A stretch of DNA of 34,399 nucleotides from Rhodothermales bacterium. GTDB lineage: Bacteria > Bacteroidota > Rhodothermia > Rhodothermales > JAHQVL01. Where the stretch lies: positions 1-34,399 of the forward strand of contig JAWXAX010000293.1 in assembly GCA_034439735.1 (NCBI GenBank), in the 5' to 3' direction. The position numbers were made by a program, and so were the translations under genes. Positions within the stretch are counted from its first letter, which is position 1. Each line of letters opens with the position of its first letter. This document shows positions 1,296-4,583 of the stretch, in pieces. Below the pieces are notes generated by a model. The model had not been told where the DNA came from and did no database searches. It worked only from the letters and a program-made list of their open reading frames with translations.

Positions 1296-1877
1296 CTACC
1301 AGAAGCGGCCGCGGACGGCGTCGTCGCTATCGTCCGGCAACACTTTTTCGGCGGCGTTCGTTTCCACGATCCGAACGCCGCTTTTCCAGACCGGCTTCAT
1401 CTTCGCCATCGGATTGCCGATATCGCCCATCACGAAGAGTTCCGCTTCCGAGCTGCGCTCCCGGCCAAAGGTCTGCATGCCCACTTCCTCAAAGCTATCG
1501 ACGGGTTCAGCGTTGAGTGGCGTCTTATTGCCGATCTTGATGGTCATTTCGCCTCGTGCGCCTTTTTCGGTGACGATGTCTTGCGCCTCGATCGAACCGT
1601 ACACGCGGGCGGATTCCTTGAGGACGAGCGTTTCGTGCACCTCGATGTTGCCGTGGATCTCGCCGGCGACGATGAGGTTCGTCGCCACGATCCGGCCACT
1701 CACCTTGCCCGTCTTCGATATGATGGCGCGACCATCAACCTCAAGGTCGGATTCGACGTCGCCGTCGATCCGGACGTCGTGGCACAGTTTCAGGTTGCCG
1801 CCCACAAACCTGGCGCTCGTTCCCAGGAGGGAAACCATCTCTATGTTGGGCTCGGGGGTTGTCTTTTTCCACATCAT
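1296..1877 (-). CDS. Bactofilin (polymer-forming cytoskeletal protein)
   Basis: Encodes 193 residues. Residues about 15-115 show the bactofilin (DUF583) pattern: regularly spaced hydrophobic and glycine positions such as VRIDGDVESDLEVDG, GKVSGRIVATNLIVAG and ARVYGSIEAQDIV, which form a right-handed beta-helix. Bactofilins polymerise without nucleotide and scaffold cell-shape, stalk or envelope enzymes. The core is followed by an unusually long tail of roughly 75 residues, acidic near its end and finishing in RGRFW; tails of this kind could recruit partners. The gene begins 43 bases after the stop of the actin-like gene, on the same strand, and is followed by a strong terminator, so the two are probably co-transcribed. 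Two consecutive ATG codons (1877, 1874) could serve as start. The family call is secure; the partner relation is inference. Confidence 0.92.
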   Translation of the reverse strand: MMWKKTTPEPNIEMVSLLGTSARFVGGNLKLCHDVRIDGDVESDLEVDGRAIISKTGKVSGRIVATNLIVAGEIHGNIEVHETLVLKESARVYGSIEAQDIVTEKGARGEMTIKIGNKTPLNAEPVDSFEEVGMQTFGRERSSEAELFVMGDIGNPMAKMKPVWKSGVRIVETNAAEKVLPDDSDDAVRGRFW

Positions 1878-1920: not shown

Positions 1921-2958
1921 TTAGTTGGCCACCGTCTCGAGAAGATTGGCGCCGATCACAGAGACGGCCGTGTTAGCGTTGCCGATGTCGAGGCCGACGG
2001 CTGTCGATCCATCGCCATTGGAGAGATGCTTGGACCGCAGGCAGTAGCCCTGGCTCGCGAGTGTCACCGGGTTGTCGACGACCTGCATGTCCAGGATATC
2101 GGCGAATTCCTTCCGGAAACAATCCACCAGATCCTCATACATCGCTCCGCCGCCGGCGAACATCAACTTGTTTGTCTTGGCAAAATCGTTGTCCGTCCAC
2201 TTATTGCGGATAAGCGGCGAGATGACATTCTGGTAGTAGCGTTTGAGTGCGCGTTTACGGGTTTCCCGTATATCGACCCGCTGACGATTGAGCGTGATCG
2301 TTCCGTCCTGGAAGGCAAGGTCGAACTGGTGCTCCGTACGCATGCCCAGGTAATACGCTTCGCTCAACTCCTGCATGGCCAGTTCGACGGCGTAGCGGAT
2401 ACCCGGGGCGCTGACCATCGTACGCTGCACGACGCCTTCCTCATTGCTGAGGCAGGCCTCGAACGTACCGTACCCGAGGCTAATCATAAAGAAATTGCCC
2501 CGCTGCCGCATCTCGCCGAGGCGGACGCCCATGATGTGCCCGATGATTTCCGGCACGACATCGACGGCCGCGATTTCGATATTCATCATCTCCCGCTCGC
2601 CGCCGCCGTAGGTGCACGTGTCGTAGTTCACCTTCTGCGCGTTGCCGATGAACTCGGCGACGTGCTGGCGATTGACGTGGAAAGTAGATTGCGGGAAGCC
2701 TAGCGTGAGCGTGATCGGCGAAGCCCCCATCGTGGCGGCCAGGAGCAGCCCGCTCTTGAGGAGCAACCGGTAGTCGAGATCGAGTGGAGAGCTATTGATC
2801 AGCCGCTGGGGCGCCACGCCTTCTGTCATGGCGAGGTGACCGATGATGTACCCCGATCCATTTTCGTAAATCTTGAGCCCGCGCAGGAGATCGTGCGATA
2901 CGCTCCGCAACTCGCTGTTGTGGCTCTCGACGACGCTCGGGAACATGACCGTTCTCAT
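1921..2958 (-). CDS. ParM/StbA-type actin-like ATPase, apparently circularly permuted
   Basis: Encodes 345 residues from ATG 2958, which has an AGGGAAGG ribosome site about 8-10 bases upstream; the longer frame to 3078 adds low-complexity sequence without motifs. Actin-fold landmarks are visible but out of order. The protein opens with MFPSVVESHN, which in ParM-like proteins comes after the first nucleotide-binding loop. Then come a connect-1-like DVVPEIIGHIMG (133-144), a phosphate-2-like ISLGYGTFEA (159-168) and an adenosine-motif-like KLMFAGGGAMYEDL (264-277). The phosphate-1 motif GLDIGNANTAVSVI sits at 322-335, ten residues from the C-terminus, after a short linker (RSKHLSNGDGS). Phosphate-2 has Ser160 where an Asp is usual. 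Actin-like ATPases form dynamic filaments. Co-location with bactofilin suggests a joint cytoskeletal role, which is inference. Confidence 0.85.
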   Translation of the reverse strand: MRTVMFPSVVESHNSELRSVSHDLLRGLKIYENGSGYIIGHLAMTEGVAPQRLINSSPLDLDYRLLLKSGLLLAATMGASPITLTLGFPQSTFHVNRQHVAEFIGNAQKVNYDTCTYGGGEREMMNIEIAAVDVVPEIIGHIMGVRLGEMRQRGNFFMISLGYGTFEACLSNEEGVVQRTMVSAPGIRYAVELAMQELSEAYYLGMRTEHQFDLAFQDGTITLNRQRVDIRETRKRALKRYYQNVISPLIRNKWTDNDFAKTNKLMFAGGGAMYEDLVDCFRKEFADILDMQVVDNPVTLASQGYCLRSKHLSNGDGSTAVGLDIGNANTAVSVIGANLLETVAN

Positions 2959-3230: not shown

Positions 3231-4496
3231 TCAGGCGGAAGGTTTCGCTGTTGTCTCCCGTAGCGCGATGCGGAGGAAGTCCCCGATTTCATCATGCTGC
3301 AGGCGTGCGTCATCGTATCCGATCTCGATGAGTTGGTCGACGTAACCGCGCTCAAAGAGGACCATGCTCATCCAGTCTGCGCTCTTCGTCTGCTCCGAGC
3401 CCAGACCGCGGGTCAAGAGGCGAAACGCACCGCTGAAATGGGGGTGGTGATGGCCGGCTAACCTTCCGATGTCCACAGACGGCCGCAGGAGGAGCATGTG
3501 GATCGGGCGAAGGCCTCGACGGTGTTTGCGCGGGACATGGGTGATGAGCTCGTTGATCCGCCGGAGCATCAGGGCGTCCTGATCAAGTACGTCCAGGAAG
3601 ATGGCGTTCATGAGGATCCCGATCACCTGCGCCACAGGAGGATACCCCACGACGGACGGCTGATCCGCCTCGACACGGGACCGGTCGTACCGGGTGGAGA
3701 TGACCATCAGATGGTCCGCCCCCATATTGACCGCCGGCGACAGCGGCATGGTCATCCGAACGCCCCCGTCGCCGTACCAGGCGCCATTGATGTAGACCGC
3801 CGGGAAAATGACCGGCAGCGCCGCCGAAGCCATGATATGATCCACTTCCATCCTCGTCGATATGGCGATCCGGTTCGGGCGTACCCAGCGATCGACGGAG
3901 CTGCCGTGGACAAACGTGGTCGTCTGCCCCGTCATATAGTTGGTGGCCGTAACGGCAAGGGCATGGAGCCGGCCAGCGGCGATGTTGGCGCTTACGCCGT
4001 CGAGCAGCCCGTTGCGCGCGTTGAGCTTATCCATCATGTAGTCGCGCAGCGGGGAAGGATCGAGCAGCCCCCGCCGGCCGGACATGTTGAAGTCGCCGGC
4101 ACCGGCTACGGAATCGGCATCTACGGAATTCATCATGCGCCGGATGAAACTGACGGTCGACTCAGGCCGGATCACCCGCTCGTGCACGAGATCCCGCCAG
4201 CAGTCTAGCAGCCCGGCGGCGGCCTCCCGAAAGGTCCCGGTGTGGTTGGCGAGATATCCGGTGTTGATCGCGCCCGCGGAGATGCCGGTCATGATCTGAA
4301 ACTGGGTTTCGGGAAACGCTTCGGCAATGTACTTTAACACGCCGGCCTGGTACGCGCCGCGAGCTCCCCCACCGCTCAGCACGAGCGCCAGTTTTTTCGG
4401 CGGTGCGGGGGGAACGAAAAACGTCCGGATTTTTTGATACGTTGAGTCGAGCACGCGATCTTCGGGTTCGTCTGCGGTCGGGTTGTCCGTTGCCAC
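3231..4496 (-). CDS. Patatin-like phospholipase (RssA type)
   Basis: The oxyanion-loop motif LVLSGGGARGAYQAG is followed by the nucleophile elbow GISAG and, later, the catalytic Asp in GDGGVRMTMPLSP. This is the Ser-Asp dyad order of patatin-family lipid acyl hydrolases. The remaining fold, including VTATNYMTGQTT and SAALPVIFPAV, matches bacterial RssA-like proteins, which cleave phospholipid or other lipid acyl esters in the cytoplasm or at the membrane. No signal peptide is visible. The start is uncertain: GTG 4496 is given, but TTG at 4514 (preceded by GGGGG) and TTG at 4553 are in frame. The gene lies 272 bases upstream of the actin-like gene on the same strand and is divergent from the DprA-like gene. 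A shared promoter region would lie in 4497-4583. The substrate is unknown. Confidence 0.88.
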   Translation of the reverse strand: MATDNPTADEPEDRVLDSTYQKIRTFFVPPAPPKKLALVLSGGGARGAYQAGVLKYIAEAFPETQFQIMTGISAGAINTGYLANHTGTFREAAAGLLDCWRDLVHERVIRPESTVSFIRRMMNSVDADSVAGAGDFNMSGRRGLLDPSPLRDYMMDKLNARNGLLDGVSANIAAGRLHALAVTATNYMTGQTTTFVHGSSVDRWVRPNRIAISTRMEVDHIMASAALPVIFPAVYINGAWYGDGGVRMTMPLSPAVNMGADHLMVISTRYDRSRVEADQPSVVGYPPVAQVIGILMNAIFLDVLDQDALMLRRINELITHVPRKHRRGLRPIHMLLLRPSVDIGRLAGHHHPHFSGAFRLLTRGLGSEQTKSADWMSMVLFERGYVDQLIEIGYDDARLQHDEIGDFLRIALRETTAKPSA

Positions 4497-4583
4497 GCCT
4501 TTCCGTCGTCGCAAAATAACCCCCGATCGAAGATAACCCCAATTCGTTTTCAAGTTCGACGAAAACCTGACGATCGCGCCGGC

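Follow-up and report, generated by a model that had tools for sequence, protein, structure and literature searches.

A ParM-like actin of 345 residues, P0001, is encoded on the minus strand of the window (the whole 34,399-nucleotide stretch of DNA analyzed here), and its family is almost certainly circularly permuted, with the phosphate-1 strand at the C-terminal instead of the N-terminal end of the chain.

Chain order of P0001

The reading frame ends with the stop codon at 1921-1923, and its codons carry 79% G+C at position 3 versus 39% at position 2 (61% for the window), a contrast that fits the coding frame of P0001. The protein starts with MRTVMFPSVVE and ends in ...AVGLDIGNANTAVSVIGANLLETVAN. 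Pfam recognizes only the C-terminal part of the archaeal actin family PF21522 (E 4.6e-4; 21.2 bits, below the Pfam cut-off of 27.8), a plain phmmer search against PDB sequences returns zero matches, and NCBIfam gives no relevant family. MreB_Mbl leaves P0001 unmatched and is detected weakly in three of nine family members (best E 0.013). The features that concern the chain order are the following:

1921-2958, minus strand: permuted ParM-like actin P0001, 345 aa (ORF; PHROG 691, 1.1e-15; Foldseek)
1954-2004, minus strand: relocated phosphate-1 beta-hairpin, residues 319-335, TAVGLDIGNANTAVSVI (AlphaFold2 strands 319-325 and 329-335)
1987-1989, minus strand: D324 of the phosphate-1 hairpin
2005-2037, minus strand: last part of the former C-terminal helix and the linker, residues 308-318, RSKHLSNGDGS (helix 300-313, then coil)
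2923-2955, minus strand: new N-terminus, strands within residues 2-12, RTVMFPSVVES (strands 2-7 and 10-12)
3231-4553, minus strand: patatin-like phospholipase (PF01734), directly 5' of the actin gene

The original prediction placed a phosphate-1 D-x-G strand at the extreme C-terminus, and the open reading frame, its coordinates, and its sequences bear this out, the motif GLDIGNANTAVSVIG being residues 322-336. The chain was also said to begin with the segment that usually comes after phosphate 1; the MFPSVV strand indeed aligns at position 25 of the PHROG 691 profile, which pairs with residue 3, and the N-terminal strands are equivalent to the ParM element that comes after phosphate 1. Moreover, no second copy lies 5', as had been claimed: the frame stays open for another 63 codons, but these encode no D-x-G strand, and several homologs have only 2-9 open codons ahead of the start, which leaves no room for an unseen N-terminal phosphate-1 copy. 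The predicted linker between the old C-terminal end and the moved strand is found as helix 300-313, a coil, and a strand from residue 319; among homologs, the sequence of the RSKHLSNGDGS region varies and its length is nearly constant.

In an alignment of 20 sequences with 38-53% identity to P0001, residues G322, D324, G326, N327, and T330 are invariant, which indicates that the C-terminal phosphate-1 motif did not arise by chance. Homologs with the same order had been anticipated, and phosphate 1 is C-terminal in 58 of 58 distinct full-length sequences, lying within the last 13-35 residues with an FPSV-type strand at the start; none of them has the conventional order. With a profile built from the rotated chain, the 24-residue phosphate-1 segment is detected solely after the body and never before it. 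A comparison with Hsc70, whose N-terminus (residues 3-23) aligns at the C-terminal hairpin of P0001, reveals matches that run in rotated order, because columns 318-338 of the native-alignment profile fall on residues 3-23, columns 129-184 on 166-223, and columns 251-318 on 317-385.

The prediction also held that the score would rise once the last 30 residues are moved to the front. Against PHROG 691 ("partition protein," ParM-like, 329 positions), this rotation raises P0001 from 58.6 bits (match 25-318) to 67.7 bits (6-318), and three homologs behave alike (68.1 to 79.3 for L016, 71.4 to 80.9 for L034, and 66.1 to 71.9 for L018), a gain of 6-11 bits in the four proteins. For Pfam ALP_N, the E value of the best family member goes from 1.8e-14 to 2.6e-16 upon rotation. 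In the PDB search, the gains of the rotated over the native profile are small and mixed, being less informative than those with PHROG.

The structural check gives the same picture. AlphaFold2, run on P0001 with 20 aligned sequences, predicts an actin fold (pLDDT 87, pTM 0.88) in which helix 300-313 is followed by the two strands of the hairpin, with a mean pLDDT of 90 over residues 321-330; a model led by the Parapedobacter homolog L039, 38% identical, repeats the same elements with a pTM of 0.87. From homology and model confidence, the hairpin would contact the nucleotide site. Foldseek matches the P0001 model to pCBH ParM (5.4e-16) and Ta0583 (1.4e-14), and the best matches across both models include these two, Dh-cParM1, and CorM. 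P0001 thus belongs to the actin superfamily (ASKHA), with the subdomains of the actin fold and three nucleotide motifs seen by AlphaFold2, Foldseek, and profiles.

An artifact of assembly or sequencing, or two fused genes that merely resemble a permutation, has a negligible probability. The identical order of 58 distinct, independently assembled sequences, the short upstream frames in homologs, and the positive rotation test all argue against it. Frame shift, mis-assembly, and gene joining (a sequencing error that joins two genes having been named beforehand as a way in which the prediction could fail) are out because dozens of independent assemblies agree, nearly all of them with no internal stop.

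Distribution and ancestry of the family

The 58 homologs span the Bacteroidota (Rhodothermales, Balneolales, Cyclobacteriaceae, Sphingobacteriaceae, and others), and every sampled lineage of the family in this phylum has the permutation, with new termini at what was the beta2/beta3 turn of subdomain IA. Among 99 relatives, 10 are carriers, in four genera. Across 84,980 species genomes, 27 loci were found, including those of Balneolales, Salinibacter, Cyclobacterium, Lunatimonas, Lunatibacter, Pleomorphovibrio, Mongoliibacter, Cognataquiflexum, Daejeonella, and Parapedobacter; carriers amount to 24 of 395 in a draw of phylum genomes and to 11 of 341 in the order that holds the Cyclobacteriaceae. 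These counts describe a family that is patchy but broad. Each of the 17 tested host genomes has a separate MreB as well, which makes the permuted protein an extra actin.

The rotated profile, run against 296 phylum genomes to look for an unpermuted close relative, retrieved only permuted members. Among viral contigs, 34 pattern matches turned up, none of them a relative. Of the viral structures, the one that best matches the model is Gp506 of Bacillus phage G (BFVD G3MAP7; Foldseek E 6.9e-21), which may be near the unpermuted parent. Although it can be aligned, Hsp70 was rejected as the parent, the ParMs and Ta0583 being closer in fold. A 60-row tree splits the permuted family into deep, well-separated clades, which fits a single permutation that took place long ago, although the root is unsure. 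Such a single event would have involved a parM-like gene that was duplicated in tandem and truncated.

Nucleotide site and bactofilin neighbor

The original prediction named neither the Trp-tailed bactofilin nor the substituted phosphate-2 Asp. Two further groups of features bear on function, the nucleotide site of the actin and the gene 3' of it:

2548-2550, minus strand: E137, the likely catalytic Glu/Gln equivalent (invariant in the 20-sequence alignment)
2461-2493, minus strand: phosphate-2 loop FFMISLGYGTF, residues 156-166 (alignment with Hsc70/DnaK)
2479-2481, minus strand: S160, in place of the Asp of ParM, Hsp70, and actin
2137-2169, minus strand: adenosine motif KLMFAGGGAMY, residues 264-274 (aligned to Hsc70 317-385)
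1296-1877, minus strand: bactofilin, 193 aa, 43 bp 3' of the actin stop (PF04519, E 3.4e-21, residues 18-108)
1299-1307, minus strand: bactofilin C-terminal tail ...RFW-COOH, proposed actin-docking peptide (terminal Trp statistics)

E137 presumably corresponds to ParM E148 and actin Q137, and the GG(G) of the adenosine motif is invariant or nearly so in the same alignment. The phosphate-2 Asp (ParM D170, Hsc70 D199, actin D154) is replaced throughout the family. Within the motif ISLGYGT, this position is Ser in nearly all members and, in a few, Gly (one Salinibacter paralog group) or Asn (L054). The top PDB match, 1nge (the D199S mutant), also has Ser at this position and scores 20.6 bits versus 17.6 for the Hsc70 chain 1hpm. 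In Hsp70 and ParM, mutation of the phosphate-2 Asp severely impairs hydrolysis. With this Asp substituted, slow hydrolysis would be expected, and we lean slightly toward a permuted actin that hydrolyzes ATP slowly or not at all.

The neighboring gene product is a bactofilin by PF04519 (75.8 bits versus a cut-off of 27.9) and probably shares an operon with the actin. No sigma-70 promoter was found, a result of little weight, since Bacteroidota use promoters other than the sigma-70 type. The adjacency is kept across orders in most lineages, a bactofilin lying directly 3' of the actin in Salinibacter (both paralogs), Balneolales, Cyclobacteriaceae, Daejeonella, and several more families. A terminal Trp is present in 42 of 49 distinct actin-adjacent bactofilins and in none of 23 bactofilins from other places in related genomes, one of which ends in Phe. 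The other adjacent ones have Trp last but one (3/49; WY, WV, WI), Phe (3/49), or a nonaromatic end (1/49; L014, DRQ). A set made nonredundant at 60% identity gives 18/24 versus 0/13 (Fisher p ~1e-5, shared ancestry ignored). Of ten loci retrieved once the hypothesis was in place, two of which repeat earlier loci, eight end in W, one in WI, and one in FF. Gene order and tail conservation make a functional pairing of actin and bactofilin quite probable.

Three Salinibacter-like genomes (G014, G024, and G068) hold two permuted actins each, every one with its own Trp-tailed bactofilin (L006-L008, L011-L013), so the pair was duplicated together. Other arrangements also occur, and they weigh against the pairing. 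Several genomes of families f4 and f18 (genus g54) have the actin with neither an adjacent nor a Trp-tailed bactofilin; L052 and L055, which have no bactofilin beside the actin, carry a probable envelope protein with a signal peptide (MMKLGKFTSLL... and MMYSGKILTIL...) ~350-430 bp 3' of the actin. In three f26 genomes (L057, L058, and L060), the order is actin, a TPR-like protein of ~375 aa, and a bactofilin lacking the Trp tail. The bactofilin N-terminus, which reads MFSKxxK in the membrane-targeting type, varies as well, being MMWKKTT in the window and MFSKREK, MFDFF, or MKFGSNK elsewhere.

Proposed function and comparison with known systems

Bactofilin filaments are nucleotide independent and usually membrane bound (PMC12448750), and bactofilin C-terminal tails bind partners (PMC12364344). 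C-terminal peptides from neighboring genes are known to bind actin grooves, as for ParR in ParM and the Trp-bearing arcadin-2 in crenactin (PMC5173319). Our best overall reading, held as reasonably likely, is a slowly hydrolyzing or nonhydrolyzing permuted actin filament tethered to membrane-associated bactofilin via the Trp tail. The permuted actin would bind ATP and polymerize, and bactofilin polymers would be held at the membrane. The flexible Trp-ending tail would then insert in the hydrophobic groove between actin subdomains IA and IIA, modeled on the ParR and arcadin-2 peptides. Judged from gene order and tail conservation, this docking is a little more plausible than its absence. The outcome would be a stable, membrane-anchored scaffold of two polymers that tethers the permuted actin and may serve cell-envelope growth or shape, not plasmid segregation.

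The original prediction spoke of a filament-forming actin, a property that we infer for P0001. Alternatively, the protein could be a nonpolymerizing permuted actin-fold ATPase, that is, a monomeric or dimeric nucleotide switch or an Hsp70-like chaperone of bactofilin assembly with the Trp tail as its client peptide. The profile aligns with the Hsp70 ATPase domain too, the phosphate-2 Asp is replaced, and bactofilin, the partner, polymerizes without nucleotide (PMC12448750). However, the nearest proteins in sequence and fold are the filament-forming ParMs and Ta0583, and the permuted actin has no substrate-binding domain, which leaves this explanation unlikely. More improbable still is a chromosomal DNA segregation motor of the ParM type, permuted by chance, with bactofilin as an adaptor or positioning the machinery. 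The best profile is a "partition protein" family (PHROG 691), and Myxococcus bactofilins organize ParABS (PMC5703909). Nonetheless, the window holds no ParR-like gene and no parC-like iterons, the neighbors of the actin being bactofilin and patatin; a tblastn search of plasmid and phage collections at E 0.01 retrieves no family member; and the replaced Asp speaks against fast dynamic instability.

Returning to the tethered filament, a role in cell shape can be put forward only tentatively, at somewhat less than an even chance. With similar reserve, an undescribed, widespread cytoskeleton may exist in which a hydrolysis-impaired permuted actin and a nucleotide-independent bactofilin, joined via the Trp tail, shape cells. 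Bactofilins affect shape in other bacteria, according to the literature. Cyclobacterium species are ring or horseshoe shaped, including C. plantarum GBPx2, which is locus L025 (PMC7232363). The carriers in Cyclobacteriaceae (L018-L032 and L040) comprise Cyclobacterium, together with Lunatimonas and Pleomorphovibrio, whose curved shape is suggested by their names alone. A tie between the permuted actin and cell curvature is suggestive only, and a strict link to curved shape is not established.

The permuted family implies that the actin fold tolerates a cut at the beta2/beta3 turn of subdomain IA. The nucleotide loop being synthesized last, nucleotide binding would be completed only at the end of translation. 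The Trp-tailed bactofilin would provide a testable contact between the nucleotide-dependent and nucleotide-independent cytoskeleton of bacteria, and the Ser or Gly at the phosphate-2 position offers a natural variant with which to ask what hydrolysis does in bacterial actins. If the two-part cytoskeleton is real, ring-shaped Cyclobacterium is among its carriers.

With respect to known systems, P0001 and its family are ParM/Ta0583-like actins with circular permutation as the new feature. The original prediction knew of no described natural circular permutant of a filament-forming actin, and likewise the open-access literature on circular permutation in actins and ASKHA proteins yielded no description of a permuted actin. 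BeeR (PMC11929497), FcmB (PMC12645912), CorM (PDB 9rmi), and the cParMs (PMC12270681) are also extra ParM- or MamK-like actins, several of them chromosomal and outside plasmid segregation; "permut" and "bactofilin" are absent from the BeeR, FcmB, and cParM texts. The ParM group (PHROG 691, pCBH ParM, and chromosomal Dh-cParM1) shares with P0001 the actin fold (Foldseek TM <=0.72) and, apart from chain order, the placement of the nucleotide motifs, whereas P0001 is permuted, has the phosphate-2 Asp replaced, shows no ParR/parC, and is chromosomal with a bactofilin neighbor. The archaeal actin Ta0583 (PF21522, MreB-like_C), from the Pfam family nearest to P0001 and the top structural match of the second homolog, has the conventional order, unlike P0001. 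In crenactin/arcadin-2 (PMC5173319) and ParM/ParR, a neighboring gene likewise supplies a C-terminal peptide that binds the actin groove; however, arcadin-2 and ParR are unrelated to bactofilin, arcadin-2 depolymerizes, and the contact here is a presumed one. Finally, BacA, BacP, and CcmA (PF04519) share the bactofilin core and have variable tails, whereas the bactofilins described here are actin adjacent and carry a conserved terminal Trp.
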